Shown here piece by piece: positions 53,871 to 64,000 of a stretch of DNA of 64,000 bases. This stretch comes from Roseovarius litorisediminis (lineage in GTDB: Bacteria > Pseudomonadota > Alphaproteobacteria > Rhodobacterales > Rhodobacteraceae). Location: contig NZ_FWFL01000002.1 in the NCBI RefSeq assembly GCF_900172295.1, positions 496,001-560,000 of the forward strand, written 5' to 3'. Every line of letters begins with the position of its first letter. Within the stretch, counting starts at the first letter, position 1. A program made the position numbers and the translations under genes. The notes beneath the pieces were generated by a model, which saw only the letters and a program-made list of their open reading frames with translations, had not been told where the DNA came from and did not search any database.

Positions 53871-53948
53871 GGGGGATTGTTTTGCTGCGTGGCTGAGGTG
53901 ACATTAAGGGCGCTTATATATCTGCGCGCTCAAGGACAGGAACCTCGA

Positions 53949-54851
53949 ATGGCCAACCGCTGGAAAAACGATCTGAAAGACTGTGATGTGACACCCGAGG
54001 CGGCATTTCTAAACCGCCGTCAACTGATGGCGGGGGCGGCGGCCGGAATCGGACTGGCAGGCATCGGCAGCACCGCCAGGGCCGAAACGCTGGAGCCGAA
54101 CGACTGGGAGGATATCACCAGCTACAACAATTATTATGAGTTCGGCACCGGCAAGGATGACCCGGCGCGCTATGCCCATACGCTTGTGACCAAGCCATGG
54201 ACCGTCAAGATTGACGGGATGGTGGATCATCCCGGTGACTATGCATTTGATGATATCATGGCGATGATGACGGTCGAAGAGCGCCTTTACCGGTTCCGCT
54301 GTGTCGAGGCATGGTCGATGGTGGTGCCATGGAACGGGTTTGAGCTGGCTGATCTGCTGGCGATGGCAGGTGTGCAATCGGGTGCCAAATATATCGCCTT
54401 TGAAACTGCCAACCGCCCGGATGAAATGCCAGGCGTGCGGTATCCCGTGCTGGACTGGCCCTATGTCGAAGGTCTGCGCATCGACGAGGCCATGCATCCG
54501 CTGACGATCATGGCGACGGGGATTTATGGCAAGGACATCCCAAACCAGAACGGCGCGCCGCTGCGTCTGGTGGTGCCGTGGAAATATGGCTTCAAATCGA
54601 TCAAGTCGATTGTGCGGATCACTGCAACAGATAAACAGCCGCCGACCAGCTGGAACAAGGCCAATGCCAGCGAATACGGCTTTTATAGTAATGTGAATCC
54701 AAAGGTGGATCACCGCCGCTGGAGCCAGGCAACCGAGCGGCGCATTGGAGGCGGTCTTTTTACAAAGCGGCAGGATACACTGATGTTCAACGGCTACGCC
54801 AATGAAGTGGCGGGGATTTATGCCGGAATGGACCTGCGGAAAAACTTCTGA
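53949..54851 (+). CDS. msrP: Protein-methionine-sulfoxide reductase catalytic subunit MsrP
   Basis: 300 residues. Periplasmic molybdenum enzyme with a Tat signal (NRRQLMAGAAAGIGLAG near 25, twin Arg). Sulfite-oxidase-fold core: YRFRCVEAWSMVVPW near 118, where the Cys is the molybdenum ligand, and GAPLRLVVPWKYGFKSIKS near 202 for substrate/cofactor contacts. Reduces oxidised Met in periplasmic proteins with electrons from MsrQ. msrQ does not follow directly: two short genes intervene, all overlapping or abutting. Confidence 0.94.
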   Translation: MANRWKNDLKDCDVTPEAAFLNRRQLMAGAAAGIGLAGIGSTARAETLEPNDWEDITSYNNYYEFGTGKDDPARYAHTLVTKPWTVKIDGMVDHPGDYAFDDIMAMMTVEERLYRFRCVEAWSMVVPWNGFELADLLAMAGVQSGAKYIAFETANRPDEMPGVRYPVLDWPYVEGLRIDEAMHPLTIMATGIYGKDIPNQNGAPLRLVVPWKYGFKSIKSIVRITATDKQPPTSWNKANASEYGFYSNVNPKVDHRRWSQATERRIGGGLFTKRQDTLMFNGYANEVAGIYAGMDLRKNF

Positions 54852-55063
54852 TGCTGGCGCGCGTGATGACATGGGTTGGCGGTCTGGGGGCGGTAACGGC
54901 GCTGTTGTGTTGTTTCACAGGGTTGCTGCCGATGATCATCGGCGCATTTGGGCTGACCTCGCTTTTGCCAATTCTTTATAAGGACTCGGTGTTGTTCCCG
55001 GTGGCCGGGGGCTTTCTGGTTCTGTTGGCGGTTGGGGTCTACCTGCAGCGGGGGCGGGCATGA
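54851..55063 (+). CDS. MerF-like small membrane protein
   Basis: 70 residues, two transmembrane helices (about 5-35 and 46-66). A Cys-Cys pair at the end of the first helix (ALLCCFTGLLPMIIGAFGL) and the following LLPILYKDSVLFPVAGGFL match the layout of MerF, the mercuric-ion importer (CCF next to Pro-rich turn; hydrophobic second helix). The second Cys pair of MerF is absent. ATG overlaps the msrP stop by 1 bp and the stop overlaps the next start by 4 bp. A metal- or thiol-related transport step in the msrPQ operon is a possibility; mercury specificity is inferred from family similarity only. Confidence 0.75.
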   Translation: MLARVMTWVGGLGAVTALLCCFTGLLPMIIGAFGLTSLLPILYKDSVLFPVAGGFLVLLAVGVYLQRGRA

Positions 55064-55272
55064 TCCTGATATCCGAGTTGACCTGTCCCGACTGCGGGCA
55101 CAAACGCGCCGAGACGATGCCAACCGATGCCTGTCAGTTCTTTTATGAATGCCGTGGTTGCGGGGCCGTGTTGCGGCCCAAGCCAGGCGACTGCTGTGTC
55201 TATTGTTCCTATGGCACGGTGCCATGCCCGCCGATTCAGAACGGCGATAGCTGTTGCGGGCATAGGGCCTGA
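55060..55272 (+). CDS. GDCCVxC domain protein
   Basis: 70 residues, soluble, twelve Cys. MILISELTCPDCGHKRAETMP with CxxC, CRGCG near 32, then the diagnostic GDCCVYCSYGTVPCPPIQ near 43 and a closing CCGHRA. GDCCVxC proteins are found near mercury genes such as merF. Possibly a zinc-ribbon or redox metallochaperone. Translational coupling to the MerF-like gene (ATGA) and to msrQ (start 1 bp after the stop) shows that all four proteins are made together. Confidence 0.85.
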   Translation: MILISELTCPDCGHKRAETMPTDACQFFYECRGCGAVLRPKPGDCCVYCSYGTVPCPPIQNGDSCCGHRA

Positions 55273-55273
55273 G

Positions 55274-55879
55274 ATGGGGCCGATCGACGGCGTCAATGCG
55301 GCTGCACGGCGGATGCCTGCGTGGCCCCTGTATATAATAGGTGTGTTACCTGCGATCTGGCTGGTGTGGCTGGGCGCGACCGGAGGCCTGGGTGCAGAAC
55401 CAATCAAGGCACTGGAGCGGGGTCTGGGCGAAAAGGCGTTGCAGCTTTTGGTGCTGGTTCTGGCAATTACGCCGCTGCGCCGATTTGTGGGGCTGAACCT
55501 GTTGAAGTTCCGTCGTGCTATCGGGTTGCTGGTCTTTATATATGCCGCGCTGCATCTGCTGGTCTGGCTGGTGCTGGATGTGCAGATACCGGCGCAGATC
55601 TGGGCCGACATCGTCAAGCGCCCCTATGTGACCATCGGCTTTACCGGGTTTCTGCTTTTGGTTCCGCTGGCAATGACCTCGAATAACTGGTCGGTGCGCA
55701 GGCTGGGGCCGAAATGGCGACAACTGCACAGGCTGACATATGTGGCCGCAGCTTTGGGGGGGGTGCATTATATATGGCTGGTCAAAGGTATTCAGATTGA
55801 GCCGCTGGCCTACATGGCCGTGATTCTGGGGCTTTTGGCCCTGCGCAAACGTGGCGCGCCCAGAAAACAGGCAGGCTGA
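55274..55879 (+). CDS. msrQ: MsrP heme-binding membrane subunit MsrQ
   Basis: 201 residues from the ATG at 55274, six transmembrane helices. Ferric-reductase-like core: KFRRAIGLLVFIYAALHLLVWLVLD and KWRQLHRLTYVAAALGGVHYIW, whose His residues bind b-type hemes. Delivers electrons from quinols or flavin to MsrP in the periplasm. Last gene of the msrP-(MerF-like)-(GDCCVxC)-msrQ operon. Confidence 0.93.
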   Translation: MGPIDGVNAAARRMPAWPLYIIGVLPAIWLVWLGATGGLGAEPIKALERGLGEKALQLLVLVLAITPLRRFVGLNLLKFRRAIGLLVFIYAALHLLVWLVLDVQIPAQIWADIVKRPYVTIGFTGFLLLVPLAMTSNNWSVRRLGPKWRQLHRLTYVAAALGGVHYIWLVKGIQIEPLAYMAVILGLLALRKRGAPRKQAG

Positions 55880-56694: not shown

Positions 56695-58170
<1,476 letters not shown>

Positions 58171-58300
58171 TTTCCTAGCATCTTGAGCTTGCTCTTGATC
58201 GTGGAAAACTTAGCAAGATCAGCAAACAAAGCTGGTCATATTTAGAACCGGACCGTCCTCATATCTCTTCAGACAAGTTTTCAGGCCTACCGGCCTGTCT

Positions 58301-58377
<77 letters not shown>

Positions 58378-58408
58378 TGTCTTTTTCGCTGCGCGAAATT
58401 GACCTTTT

Positions 58409-58484
58409 GGGGCCTTAGCTCAGCTGGGAGAGCGCCTGATTTGCATTCAGGAGGTCAGCGGTTCGATCCCGCTAGGCTCCACCA
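58409..58484 (+). tRNA. tRNA-Ala (TGC)
   Basis: Anticodon in TTTGCATTC, acceptor GGGGCCT pairs with AGGCTCC, CCA encoded. Second spacer tRNA. Confidence 0.97.
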
Positions 58485-58850
58485 TAAATCGATTTGACCG
58501 CTAAGCACTGTATCAAGTGTTTAGCCGTCCAATCGGACGAATTGACATCGTATAGAGAGATACAAATATCAACACTGTTTGGTAATCGCGAGTAAGCGAT
58601 TTACCTCAGTTTGGTGCTTGAAGCCTTCGGGCCGATAGCAAGCATTTGACGCGATTGCTTCCTCGATCGCCCTTATGTGTGCCAGCTGAAACGAACAGAG
58701 TTGTCCAAGTCAAGTACACTAACCCGAGCAATCCAAAAGGGTTGCTCATTGTCTGGTTCCGCACGGAACCAGGCGGGAAAAGTATGACTTTTGTTCCAGA
58801 ATAAGGGCAGCGGTTTCTTACCAGCTTCCGTTGTCGCGCAAGCTAGTCTT
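58485..58850. other. 16S-23S spacer after tRNA-Ala
   Basis: No gene. About 365 bp leading to the 23S processing stem. Confidence 0.7.
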
Positions 58851-58872
58851 GCTTTTTCTGGATCAAATCAAG
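58851..58872 (+). other. 5' half of the 23S rRNA processing stem
   Basis: GCTTTTTCTGGATCAAATCA and two further bases pair with 62299-62320 with one mismatch, the long stem cut by RNase III when 23S is released. Confidence 0.85.
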
Positions 58873-59429
58873 CGCGAAAAGGGCGTTTGGTGAATGCCTT
58901 GGCAGTAAGAGGCGATGAAAGACGTGATACTCTGCGATAAGCCATGAGGAGCTGAGAATAAGCTTTGATCCATGGATTTCTGAATGGGGCAACCCACCTG
59001 ACAGTTTGTTATAATAGCCTTCGGGCTGCTTATAACTTGCTGAAACAGGTACTTAAGGACTGAATACATAGGTCTTTAAGAGCAAACCCGGAGAACTGAA
59101 ACATCTAAGTACCCGGAGGAAAGGACATCAATTGATACTCCCCTAGTAGCGGCGAGCGAACGGGGACCAGCCGAGCCATGATTGTGAATAGAACGTGTTG
59201 GGAAGCACGGCCATAGTGGGTGATAGCCCCGTATATGAAGCATGATTGGACGTATTAAGTAGGGCGGAACACGTGAAATTCTGTCTGAAGATCGGAGGAC
59301 CACCTTCGAAGGCTAAGTACTCCTTACTGACCGATAGTGAACCAGTACCGTGAGGGAAAGGTGAAAAGCACCCCGACGAGGGGAGTGAAACAGTACCTGA
59401 AACCGAACGCCTACAATCAGTCGGAGCTT

Positions 59430-60047
59430 GACTGGACTCTAATGACAATCTGCTTCATCAACATGACTGAAAAGTCTTGGAGAGAATAAGCATGTCGGAT
59501 CTTGCATTTATAACGGATGGTACCTTTGCAGTAATTGGCCTGGTTGCCGGTTTAATCGACATGGGCATTAATCATTGCCCCAACGATGGCTGCCTGACCA
59601 AAAACAAGGTACAGTCTTATGCAAGCCTCTCGGTTGGCGACACGGTGTTCCAAAAGGACACAGTCGGCGAAGAGATATACTTCCGCAGAGATACAAGTAT
59701 AGCGAATGGGCCGTTCCAATTGGCCTACGGACTTTCAGCCTCCAGCGATGGAGAGCTATGGGCCGGAATTGGCCATGTTTATACTCTCAGCAATCGGAAG
59801 AAAAACATGTTCCTGCAGCTACACGCTATGACCGGCCTTTACGAAGAGGGCGACGGCGTGGATCTGGGCGGACCGATCGAATTTCGTTCGGGCATCGAAT
59901 TCGGATATCAGAACAAATCTGGTGTGCGGATGAGTGTCGGGGCCGATCACCGCTCGAATGCAGGGCTTTACAGCGGAAACCCTGGTCTGGAAACGGTACA
60001 CTTTCGGGTGTCCATACCAACCAAATGATTGTTATTAGTGTCCAGTC
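59430..60047 (+). other. Intervening sequence (IVS) in helix 25 of 23S rRNA
   Basis: The arms GACTGGACTCTAATGACAAT (59430-59449) and ATTGTTATTAGTGTCCAGTC (60028-60047) pair over 20 bp with one U-U mismatch and one G-U pair; C59450-G60027 makes a further pair. It sits where helix 25 would be, between CAGTCGGAGCTT and TTGTGACGGCGTACC. This is the location and shape of bacterial 23S IVSs that RNase III removes without religation. Unlike common short IVSs, it is 618 nt long and contains a complete ORF. Confidence 0.93.
59492..60028 (+). CDS. PagL-like lipid A deacylase encoded inside the 23S rRNA IVS
   Basis: 178 residues from the ATG at 59492, with SD GGAGAG (59479-59484) at 7 bp; a TTG at 59477 is the alternative. 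The C-terminal half is the acyloxyacyl hydrolase / PagL family: LQLHAMTGLYEEGDGVDLGG, IEFRSGIEFGYQN, GADHRSNAGLYSGNPGLETV. His153-x-Ser155 and Glu167 keep the 2- and 14-residue spacing of the PagL triad (His126, Ser128, Glu140 in P. aeruginosa). Family: outer-membrane beta-barrel that removes the 3-O acyl chain of lipid A. The N-terminus has a hydrophobic stretch (FAVIGLVAGLIDMGI) and a Cys pair (CPNDGC) but no clear basic signal peptide. The ORF has lower GC than most of the window and some ATA and AGA codons. The stop TGA (60026-60028) enters the closing stem. Confidence 0.88.
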   Translation: MSDLAFITDGTFAVIGLVAGLIDMGINHCPNDGCLTKNKVQSYASLSVGDTVFQKDTVGEEIYFRRDTSIANGPFQLAYGLSASSDGELWAGIGHVYTLSNRKKNMFLQLHAMTGLYEEGDGVDLGGPIEFRSGIEFGYQNKSGVRMSVGADHRSNAGLYSGNPGLETVHFRVSIPTK

Positions 60048-60549
60048 TTGTGACGGCGTACCTTTTGTATAATGGGTCATCGACTTGGTCTATCTAGCAA
60101 GCTTAAGCCGTTAGGTGTAGGCGCAGCGAAAGCGAGTCTTAATAGGGCGAATGAGTTAGATGGATCAGACCCGAAACCGAGTGATCTAGGCATGACCAGG
60201 ATGAAGGTAAGGTAACACTTACTGGAGGTCCGAACCCACACCTGTTGAAAAAGGTCGGGATGAGTTGTGCCTAGGGGTGAAAGGCCAATCAAACTCGGAG
60301 ATAGCTGGTTCTCTGCGAAATCTATTTAGGTAGAGCGTCATCCGAATACCATCGGGGGTAGAGCACTGGATGGGTAATGGGGCCCCACAGGCTTACTGAT
60401 CCTAACCAAACTCCGAATACCGATGAGTACTAGATGGCAGACAGACTGCGAATGCTAACGTCCGTAGTCGAGAGGGAAACAACCCTGACCTACAGCTAAG
60501 GCCCCCAATTCATGGCTAAGTGGGAAAGCAGGTGGGACGACCAAAACAA

Positions 60550-60580
<31 letters not shown>

Positions 60581-61316
60581 TAAAGATAGCGTAACAGCTC
60601 ACTGGTCTAAATAAGTTGTCCTGCGGCGAAGATGTAACGGGGCTCAAGCCATGAGCCGAAGCTTAGGATGCCGTAAGGCATGGTAGCAGAGCGTAGTGTG
60701 ACATAGTTCCATTCCTCCTTAGCACCGTTCGCGGTGCATTGGAGGACCGGAGCTTTCGATGAAGCCGGGGCGTGAGCCATCCGGTGGAGAGATCACTAGT
60801 GAGAATGATGACATGAGTAGCGACAAACAGTGTGAGAGACACTGTCGCCGAAAGTCCAAGGGTTCCTGCTTAAAGCTAATCTGAGCAGGGTAAGCCGACC
60901 CCTAAGGCGAGGCCGAAAGGCGTAGTCGATGGGAACCAGGTTAATATTCCTGGGCCAGGAAGTAGTGACGGATCTCGAGGGTAGTTCATCCTAATCGGAT
61001 TGAATGGGCTGCTTAGAGGTTCCTGGAAATAGCTCTTCCGCTAGATCGTACCCTAAACCAACACAGGTGGACTGGTAGAGAATACCAAGGCGCTTGAGAG
61101 AACCACATTTAAGGAACTCGGCAAAATACCTCCGTAAGTTCGCGAGAAGGAGGCCCGATTGAAACGCAAGTTTTGGTCGGGGGCACAAACCAGGGGGTGG
61201 CGACTGTTTACTAAAAACACAGGGCTCTGCGAAGTCGCAAGACGACGTATAGGGTCTGACGCCTGCCCGGTGCCTGAAGGTTAAAAGGAGAGGTGAGAGC
61301 CTTGAATTGAAGCCCA

Positions 61317-61399
<83 letters not shown>

Positions 61400-61654
61400 C
61401 GACTTCCCCGCTGTCTCAAATGTGGACTCAGCGAAATTGAATTGCCTGTCAAGATGCAGGCTTCCCGCGGTTAGACGGAAAGACCCCGTGCACCTTTACT
61501 ACAGCTTCACACTGGCATTAGGCCGAACATGTGCAGGATAGGTGGTGGGCTTTGAAGCAGGAACGCTAGTTTCTGTGGAGCCTCCCTTGAGATACCACCC
61601 TTGTTCTGCTTGATGTCTAACCGCGGTCCGTTATCCGGATCCGGGACCCTGTGT

Positions 61655-61689
<35 letters not shown>

Positions 61690-61827
61690 GCGTAACGGAG
61701 GCGCGCGAAGGTTGGCTCAGAGCGGTCGGAAATCGCTCGTTGAGTGCAATGGCAGAAGCCAGCCTGACTGCGAGACTGACAAGTCGAGCAGAGTCGAAAG
61801 ACGGCCATAGTGATCCGGTGGTCCCGA

Positions 61828-61881
<54 letters not shown>

Positions 61882-62298
61882 ACTGCCCAAGAGTCCATAT
61901 CGACGGCAGTGTTTGGCACCTCGATGTCGGCTCATCTCATCCTGGGGCTGGAGCAGGTCCCAAGGGTACGGCTGTTCGCCGTTTAAAGAGGTACGTGAGC
62001 TGGGTTTAGAACGTCGTGAGACAGTTCGGTCCCTATCTGCCGTGGGTGTAGGATACTTGAGAGGAGTTGCCCCTAGTACGAGAGGACCGGGGTGAACGAA
62101 CCACTGGTGGACCTGTTGTGGCGCCAGCCGCAGTGCAGGGTAGCTATGTTCGGACAGGATAACCGCTGAAGGCATCTAAGCGGGAAGCCCCCCTCAAAAC
62201 AAGGTATCCCTGAGGACCGTGGTAGACCACCACGTCGATAGGCCGGAGATGTAAGCGCAGCAATGCGTTCAGTTGACCGGTACTAATTGTCCGATAGG

Positions 62299-62320
62299 CT
62301 TGATTTGATCCAGTAAAAGC
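62299..62320 (+). other. 3' half of the 23S rRNA processing stem
   Basis: Pairs with 58851-58872; see that entry. Confidence 0.85.
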
Positions 62321-62393
62321 CAGACTTTTACGGATAATCAAAAGCATACACACCATAATCAGCGTACGTGACTTGGATTTAAGGATTTTTCTC

Positions 62394-62512
62394 GGTTTGG
62401 TGGTCATAGCACAAGCGAAACACCCGGTCCCATCCCGAACCCGGCCGTTAAGCGCTGTAGCGCCGATGGTACTGCATCTTAAGATGTGGGAGAGTAGGTC
62501 ACCGCCAAACCT
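62394..62512 (+). rRNA. 5S ribosomal RNA
   Basis: From GGTTTGGTGGTC to CACCGCCAAACCT, which pair as helix I. GAAACACCCGGTCCCATCCC is the conserved loop B region. Length about 119 nt. Confidence 0.93.
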
Positions 62513-62643: not shown

Positions 62644-63624
62644 ATGGCCAAAGAACATGACGCAAGCATGATGCAGAACCTCTATTGGTGGGGCATCCCG
62701 ACATTGTTCCGTTGCCCGAACGAGCCTGCCGAAGGCAAGGATATCGTGCTGGCCGGTGTGCCGCATTCGACTGGAAACGGCACAACCGAGCGCGACCAGC
62801 ATCTAGGGCCACGCGCGGTGCGGAATGTATCCTGCCTGCAGCGGCGCGTGCATGGGGAGATCGGGATAAACCCGTGGGAAAAAGCGAAAATTTCCGATAT
62901 AGGTGACGTTCCGTTTCCACGTGCGAACGATAATGAACATTGTATTCAGCAGATCACCGACTTCTATAAAGACGTTGATGCTGCAGGCGCCCGACCCGTG
63001 TCGATTGGGGGCGATCATTCGATCACCGGGGGTATCCTGCAAGCTCTTGGGGGTGGAAATCTCTCCAACGGAGAGGCTGTCTCCCTGCTGCATCTGGATG
63101 CCCATACGGATGTGTTTACGAAAGTTGATCATTTTCTAGGCGCTGAAAAATCGGCCGCCCATTGGGGCGCGTATCTTGCCGATCAGGGTCAGGTGGATCC
63201 CAGTACCTCCATGCAGATCGGTCTGCGGGGGCACCCGAGGACATTGGATTGGCTGCAACCCAGTTATGACTATGGCTATAACGTTGTGACCATGAAAGAA
63301 TATCGCTCTCGCGGGGCGTTGGATGTGATCCAGCAAATCAAAACAGTGCTGGATGGCAGACCGGTTTACATCACCTTCGATCTGGATTGCCTTGATGCCG
63401 CTGTCGCCCCGGCCGTTTCGAACATCGAACCAGGCGTGACCGGGTTTTCGATGGATGAGGCGATAGAGTTGCTGCATGCAGTGCGGGGAATGAACATCGT
63501 GGGCGGGGATGTCGTCTGCCTGATGCCGACCAAGGACAGCCCAAACCAGATCACCGCCATGGTCGCTGCGGCGGTTATGTTCGAAATGGTGTCGATGATT
63601 GCGGAAAGCATGCCGATGGCATAA
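62644..63624 (+). CDS. Agmatinase/arginase (ureohydrolase) family protein
   Basis: 326 residues. Binuclear Mn site: SIGGDHSIT near residue 121, LLHLDAHTDVF near 150, TFDLDCLDAAVAPAV near 245. The family hydrolyses agmatine, arginine or related guanidino compounds to urea plus an amine. The DAHTD and FDLDCLD forms are those of agmatinase-like enzymes, but guanidinobutyrase or similar cannot be excluded. It stands between 5S and tRNA-fMet, where Rhodobacterales operons usually have no protein gene, with a weak promoter at best, so it may be partly expressed from the rRNA operon. Confidence 0.9.
   Translation: MAKEHDASMMQNLYWWGIPTLFRCPNEPAEGKDIVLAGVPHSTGNGTTERDQHLGPRAVRNVSCLQRRVHGEIGINPWEKAKISDIGDVPFPRANDNEHCIQQITDFYKDVDAAGARPVSIGGDHSITGGILQALGGGNLSNGEAVSLLHLDAHTDVFTKVDHFLGAEKSAAHWGAYLADQGQVDPSTSMQIGLRGHPRTLDWLQPSYDYGYNVVTMKEYRSRGALDVIQQIKTVLDGRPVYITFDLDCLDAAVAPAVSNIEPGVTGFSMDEAIELLHAVRGMNIVGGDVVCLMPTKDSPNQITAMVAAAVMFEMVSMIAESMPMA

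Positions 63625-63770: not shown

Positions 63771-64000
<230 letters not shown>

Follow-up and report, generated by a model that had tools for sequence, protein, structure and literature searches.

The window analysed here, a stretch of 64,000 nt from Roseovarius litorisediminis, contains a 23S rRNA gene whose helix-25 region is interrupted by an intervening sequence carrying an intact, selected gene of the PagL family and its own promoter-like element. The reading that we prefer, and which we judge to have about an even chance of being right, is that this insert forms a tight domain closed by a stem and likely excised by RNase III. Beyond the original prediction, comparison of sequences indicates that the insert is widespread and that the gene has moved repeatedly between the 23S gene (embedded copies) and other sites (free copies). 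It also points to a promoter-like element that is common to free and embedded copies and has its -35-like part in the 5' arm of the terminal stem. The coding RNA, in turn, is predicted to be tightly folded, as a rule, in the rRNA context only. The features on which the argument draws are the following.

58866-62307, plus strand: interrupted 23S rRNA gene (flanks 58866-59429 and 60048-62307; Rfam RF02541 LSU_rRNA_bacteria, model positions 1-2925, 2590 bits)
59430-60047, plus strand: 618-nt intervening sequence in the helix-25 region (junctions from alignment with occupied and empty relatives)
59430-59450, plus strand: 5' arm of the terminal stem, pairing with 60027-60047 and holding the -35-like TGGAC (59433-59437)
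59433-59461, plus strand: promoter-like element TGGACT-N17-CATCAA (-35-like part 59433-59438, -10-like part 59456-59461; putative promoter role)
59454-59486, plus strand: predicted leader hairpin covering part of the Shine-Dalgarno sequence
59479-59482, plus strand: Shine-Dalgarno-like GGAG, 9 nt 5' of the ATG
59492-60028, plus strand: PagL-family ORF (ATG, 178 codons, TGA; H153/S155/E167 triad, invariant C29 and C34)
60027-60047, plus strand: 3' arm of the terminal stem, which opens with the last two bases of the ORF stop codon

The insert and the gene within it

The rRNA operon (56695-62510) comprises 16S, tRNA-Ile, tRNA-Ala, 23S and 5S genes, and a tRNA-Met gene lies at 63771. It is flanked upstream by ORFs at 53877-55879, which by eye we take to resemble an MsrP/MsrQ pair, and downstream by an ORF at 62644-63624, presumably encoding an agmatinase-type enzyme, again judged by eye. 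Compared with the Rfam model, the 23S gene is complete apart from the 618-nt interruption at 59430-60047. The original prediction of such an interruption at helix 25 was thus confirmed, both by the Rfam match and by the alignment of the junctions of relatives; the assignment to helix 25 is based on the adjoining 23S sequence and the positions in the model. The gene spans 3442 nt, and 2824 nt once the insert is subtracted, a length for which the original prediction gave 2821 nt. The suspicion that the flanks might represent an assembly join can be dismissed, since the identical site holds the insert, its stem and its ORF in dozens of other assemblies. Over its first 300 nt, the 3' flank of the 23S is 88-99% identical to other embedded loci, and the ORF 52-73%.

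The insert starts with GACTGGACTCTAATGACAATC and ends with GATTGTTATTAGTGTCCAGTC, and these ends, which coincide with the terminal stem, pair with each other over 20 base pairs with one mismatch. The minimum-energy fold of 59405-60075 recovers this closing stem (z -6.15 against 20 shuffles). Pairing holds in 97.5% of the 560 cells given by 28 distinct arm pairs, a value reached by none of 500 shuffles, and versions of the stem slid out of register pair at no more than 46%. Six pairs changed on both sides, and 11 of the 20 are invariant, hence uninformative. A known 23S helix as insertion site and a terminal stem with compensatory changes are the structural marks of an RNase III-type 23S intervening sequence, and the insert has both. 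Excerpts of the literature describe excision by RNase III for the Coxiella 23S intervening sequence (PMC4990558) and, as cited in part of PMC6191907, for Salmonella and alphaproteobacteria.

For the comparisons below, we used a tree and folding set of 91 distinct loci out of 121 (49 embedded, 42 free), after dropping 29 loci with duplicate ORFs and one cut short by unreadable sequence. The stop codon lies at exactly the window's distance from the 3' arm in 19 of the 49 embedded copies. In eight of the 49 embedded inserts (L024, L026, L072, L076, L079, L085, L093, L015), a small hairpin-like motif, CTCAAG...GGTAG, flanks the ORF on either side; it recurs upstream of the insert in the 5' parts of several 23S genes and has the look of a structural unit that is repeated among such inserts.

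Sections of two papers (PMC11270868, PMC2672173) document that rRNA genes can host ORF-bearing introns and transposons, and the window insert might be a self-splicing intron or a transposon that bears the gene incidentally. We rejected this explanation as next to negligible: at E values up to 1, Rfam reports only LSU rRNA over 59350-60130, Pfam finds neither an endonuclease nor a transposase domain, and the termini form a simple complementary stem.

The 178-codon ORF had been predicted to possess its own Shine-Dalgarno sequence and stop codon, which proved correct (GGAG at 59479-59482, TGA). A loosely defined Shine-Dalgarno-like motif, scored without a shuffled control, is found in 43/49 embedded and 31/42 free copies. 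The ORF had also been described as a lipid A deacylase-like gene not belonging to the S23p family, and both claims are borne out. In the Pfam search it matches PF09411 (PagL) with an E value of 2.5e-12 and 47.5 bits against a cut-off of 23 (profile positions 46-135 of 136 aligned), and at E values up to 1 this is the sole family reported, which rules out S23p/23S_rRNA_IVP (PF05635); a scan of the ORF against NCBIfam returned no match. Homologues at E ≤ 0.001 number 161 among 205 candidates. The AlphaFold2 model, based on 107 sequences (pLDDT 91.5), has a helix at the N-terminus (residues 11-28) and a barrel, and the predicted fold is that of an 8-stranded outer-membrane barrel whose best solved structural match is 2ERV, which we take to be PagL of Pseudomonas aeruginosa. 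The profile aligns H153, S155 and E167 with H126, S128 and E140 of the 2ERV chain, presumably the catalytic residues of PagL. This His/Ser/Glu triad is present in all 91 relatives (49/49 embedded, 42/42 free), as are C29 and C34. The N-terminus forms a hydrophobic helix that in 81 of the 91 copies lacks K and R within the first 12 residues. In view of this helix and of the invariant Cys pair, the product would be an outer-membrane protein with an atypical N-terminus for export, its export being putative.

Every one of the 49 embedded ORFs is full length (170-183 codons). Their median dN/dS is 0.057 (range 0 to 0.59; 25 of 1176 pairs with 0.05<dS<1), and that of free ORFs 0.211 (range 0.076 to 0.562; 14 of 861 pairs within the same dS limits). 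Changes between the window ORF and that of locus L024 are chiefly third-position (35/16/93 by codon position). The substitution pattern thus indicates that the embedded PagL-family ORF is under strong purifying selection as a protein. Together with the family match and the homologues, this excludes a chance ORF, and the conceivable objection that the ORF might have no homologue and show no codon selection falls away.

Distribution, copy number and movement of the gene

We found the gene at E ≤ 0.001 in 38 of the 84 genomes of the window's genus. In 40 genomes of the genus both 23S flanks could be located by exact pattern, and a search there for the same intervening sequence revealed that the site is occupied by the gene in 31 and empty in seven, with two inserts read as N. 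The other seven gene-bearing genomes include G004, in which the copy is embedded and one flank pattern was missed, three in which the sequence upstream of the gene is unreadable and the 23S 3' flank follows it, and three whose copies are free (G028 and G071, both counted as empty, and G101). The copy of Roseovarius halotolerans (P0015; locus L034), which is embedded, is annotated as PagL in public records. The best 80 of 138 titled loci, a few of which come from one and the same genome, comprise 38 embedded copies with both flanks, one with only the 3' flank readable, and 41 free copies; among these best 80, the embedded loci span 15 named genera of Roseobacteraceae/Paracoccaceae. At the level of the family, the junction pattern was detected in 21 of 394 genomes, nearly all from different genera; these hold 24 junctions, 22 with a PagL-family match and two largely unreadable. 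A record labelled Enemella evansiae (Actinomycetota; L081) has a Rhodobacterales-like 23S with the insert and is likely a contamination.

Of 12 genomes, ten yielded a single 5S gene; all of these have embedded copies, and the window's own genome is one of them. These counts rest on 139 candidates scored per genome out of 152-259, an approach adopted since the DNA operon search gave partial matches. With a single 5S gene among the candidates scored, those ten genomes probably have no 23S besides the occupied one, bearing in mind that draft assemblies can collapse repeats. By pattern, genome G090 has two 23S copies, both occupied, and G422 has three occupied junctions in a search that sees occupied copies only. 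In Phaeobacter sp. J2-8, three embedded ORFs (L059, L060 and L062) are near-identical, and the tail that follows the ORF in L059 differs from that in L060 and L062, which may reflect exchange between operons.

Searching 15 genomes for PF09411 outside the 23S, we detected a second gene in none of the eight embedded genomes, one gene in each of the two free-copy genomes and none in the five empty genomes. These results bear on the notion of a passive insert, in which the intervening sequence captured the gene and leaves it unexpressed at the 23S site. There is precedent in Coxiella, where excerpts of PMC4990558 present the S23p ORF as decaying and apparently untranslated. Yet the low median dN/dS, the full-length ORFs of 49 distinct embedded copies, the invariant triad and the lack of a second PF09411 gene in all eight embedded genomes searched speak against such a fate, and we consider it very unlikely.

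The tree of 91 loci requires no fewer than 12 changes of location, five of which are forced by supported branches, and a topology with the embedded copies as one clade was rejected (p-AU 3e-05). The phylogeny thus speaks for repeated relocation of the PagL-family gene between the 23S and other sites. Free copies of R. albus and G101 nest in an otherwise embedded group (support 100/99 and 97/96), so that these copies most likely left the 23S. We also considered a remnant of the 5' arm as proof of this exit and discarded it: each of the two copies matches at 16 of 24 positions, as none of 200 shuffles does, but the outside-group locus L100 matches equally. The match adds little because it is indistinguishable from the shared promoter-like element.

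As for the free copies, nine of the 41 titled loci (from the best 80 of 138) are found at a distance of about 2 kb or less from the 3' end of an rRNA operon or from its tRNA-Met (L033, L055, L061, L074, L078, L088, L092, L099 and L101), on the opposite strand in L055 and L074, and some of them owe this to shared descent. A conserved neighbourhood of free copies was not upheld, neighbour groups being shared mainly within genera, e.g., Marivita and Donghicola. A glycosyltransferase-like neighbour recurs beside free copies at four loci in three genera.

Promoter-like element, leader and coding fold

The motif TGGAC-N18-CAT is located upstream of 18 of the 42 free copies (shuffle mean 0.04), some of these loci being close kin and the element of L064 lying very near the chosen start codon. 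Every other TGGAC/CAT spacing from 10 to 27 occurs in no or one free locus. The exact motif is present in 27/49 embedded copies, and is missing in 24/42 free and 22/49 embedded ones. The profile of free copies, drawn from 23 loci with TGGAC, reads CTGGACa-N9-AtCTG-N3-CAT. In embedded copies, TGGAC doubles as part of the 5' arm of the terminal stem. We infer from this recurrence that the element acts as a promoter, with a -10-like part, CATnnA, that is a poor sigma-70 match. Thalassovita-type genes (L055, L065, L070, L074, L071) display by eye another upstream pair, TGACA-N17-TA, and in the embedded L071 TGACA coincides with the end of the conserved stem arm.

Between this element and the ORF, embedded leaders tend to be structured. 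Against single-base shuffles, those of the Roseovarius clade (31 distinct) have a mean z of -2.39, and those from elsewhere a mean z of -2.03 (10 of 15, cut to 60 nt, with five short leaders omitted), while the 38 nt 5' of the 42 free genes have a mean z of 0.04. The hairpin is weak or absent (z above -1) in 6/31 leaders of the Roseovarius clade and in 2/10 of the other embedded copies.

The coding regions differ as well. Compared with synonymous-codon shuffles, which preserve the protein and the codon usage, embedded ORFs have a mean z of -3.60, with 43 of 49 below -2, whereas free ORFs have a mean z of -0.32, with 3 of 42 below -2 (Mann-Whitney p 7e-14, kinship ignored). A repeat with 20 shuffles gave -3.59 (43/49) and -0.32 (4/42). 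Six embedded ORFs are not below -2, the weakest being L058, L067 and L015; the free ORFs below -2 in the repeat are L037, L054, L070 and L098. The window's own coding z is -2.0 to -2.7. For the free copies of R. albus and G101 the values are -0.2 and -1.7, against -6.4, -6.2 and -9.0 for their embedded sisters. A fixed base-paired fold within the coding region is not claimed, covariation being only modest: changes on both sides of coding pairs number 9, 3 and 10 in three embedded sets and 4 and 1 in two free sets. What is predicted is that a tight coding fold goes, as a rule, with the rRNA location; our reading is that it would reflect selection for compactness in the rRNA context.

The tight fold might instead be a by-product of ancestry or base composition. 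Many embedded copies are indeed relatives, there are a few exceptions both ways, and well-supported branches offer just five independent contrasts, in which 3.8 pairs agree and 0.3 disagree on average (median p 0.125), five pairs being too few to reach significance. However, the synonymous shuffles control for protein and codon usage, mean GC is similar in the embedded and free sets (0.573 and 0.585), the antisense strand is less tight (z -1.63 embedded, -0.55 free), and in all seven hand-picked sister contrasts the embedded copy or copies are tighter than the mean of the free relatives. On balance, we find an origin in ancestry or composition unlikely.

In the reading that we favour, the insert would form a compact domain of the pre-rRNA, with the helix-25 stem closing it; RNase III would probably cleave this stem, leaving the 23S rRNA in two pieces. 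In that long precursor, part of the Shine-Dalgarno sequence would be locked in the leader hairpin, which would dampen translation, and the tight fold would make for a compact insert with little translation. The main mRNA would arise from the internal promoter-like element as a transcript that starts at about 59468 and lacks the 5' half of the leader hairpin. Its predicted product, an 8-stranded outer-membrane barrel, would remove the 3-O acyl chain of lipid A.

The main alternative holds that the mRNA is the excised intervening sequence itself, with PagL made from the pre-rRNA and lipid A trimming tied to the rate of ribosome synthesis. It fits the orientation of the ORF on the rRNA strand and the position of the Shine-Dalgarno sequence and stop codon inside what the stem would release; moreover, with one 5S gene in 10/12 genomes, all ten embedded, every pre-23S would carry the ORF. 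Yet structure around the Shine-Dalgarno sequence is predicted for the majority of embedded leaders, coding folds are unusually tight, and the promoter-like element is kept in embedded and free settings alike. In addition, the Coxiella excised intervening RNA is quickly degraded, according to excerpts of PMC4990558. We therefore regard this route as possible, with a smaller chance than expression from the internal promoter-like element.

Implications and comparison with known systems

Taken as a whole, the gene may be viewed as an rRNA expansion segment, a picture that we hold at half confidence: the putative promoter lies in one helix arm and the stop codon in the other, the codons would be chosen for an rRNA-like mRNA fold and re-tuned upon moving in or out, and one DNA stretch would serve as gene, control element and domain of the ribosomal precursor. 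If true, 23S rRNA genes can house working protein genes over long evolutionary times, and not just selfish or decaying ORFs. Such genes would escape notice wherever annotation discards ORFs that overlap rRNA. The repeated moves in and out would represent a natural experiment on the adaptation of mRNA to life inside rRNA, and an envelope-modifying enzyme encoded in an rRNA operon that is often the sole one would allow direct tests of a link between growth, ribosome assembly and remodelling of the outer membrane.

The original prediction knew of no described case; likewise, among the matches listed for open-licence PMC papers, we found no description of a PagL-type or lipid A deacylase gene inside 23S. 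The ORFs reported from rRNA insertions in excerpts of PMC4990558, PMC11270868 and PMC2672173 encode S23p, homing endonucleases and transposases, and for the Campylobacter helix-25 and helix-45 inserts the excerpt of PMC2801512 contains no mention of an ORF. With the homing endonuclease ORFs of rRNA introns and the transposase ORFs of rRNA insertions, the window insert shares the presence of a protein gene within an rRNA gene; yet those products serve mobility, whereas that of the window is a predicted envelope enzyme and its insert matches no intron in Rfam.

RNase III-type 23S intervening sequences occupy helix 25/45 in Salmonella, helix 45 in Coxiella, helix 25/45 in Campylobacter and helix 9 in alphaproteobacteria. 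The window insert resembles them in its helix-25 position, in the long terminal stem on a 23S helix and in the otherwise complete rRNA. It differs in carrying a conserved, selected gene for a predicted enzyme along with a promoter-like element, and its excision is putative. Relative to the PagL 3-O-deacylase of Pseudomonas aeruginosa (2ERV), the window gene stands out by its location inside the 23S, by an N-terminal helix nearly free of K and R and by the conserved Cys pair, its activity being predicted. The closest parallel in arrangement is provided by the S23p (PF05635) ORFs of Leptospira, Coxiella, Xanthomonas and Brucella, which likewise encode a protein on the rRNA strand of a 23S intervening sequence. 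S23p, however, is a four-helix bundle, in contrast to the predicted PagL barrel of the window, which is full length and selected. Moreover, excerpts of PMC4990558 depict the Coxiella S23p gene as decaying and its Shine-Dalgarno region as removed at excision, whereas the Shine-Dalgarno sequence of the window ORF lies inside the insert.
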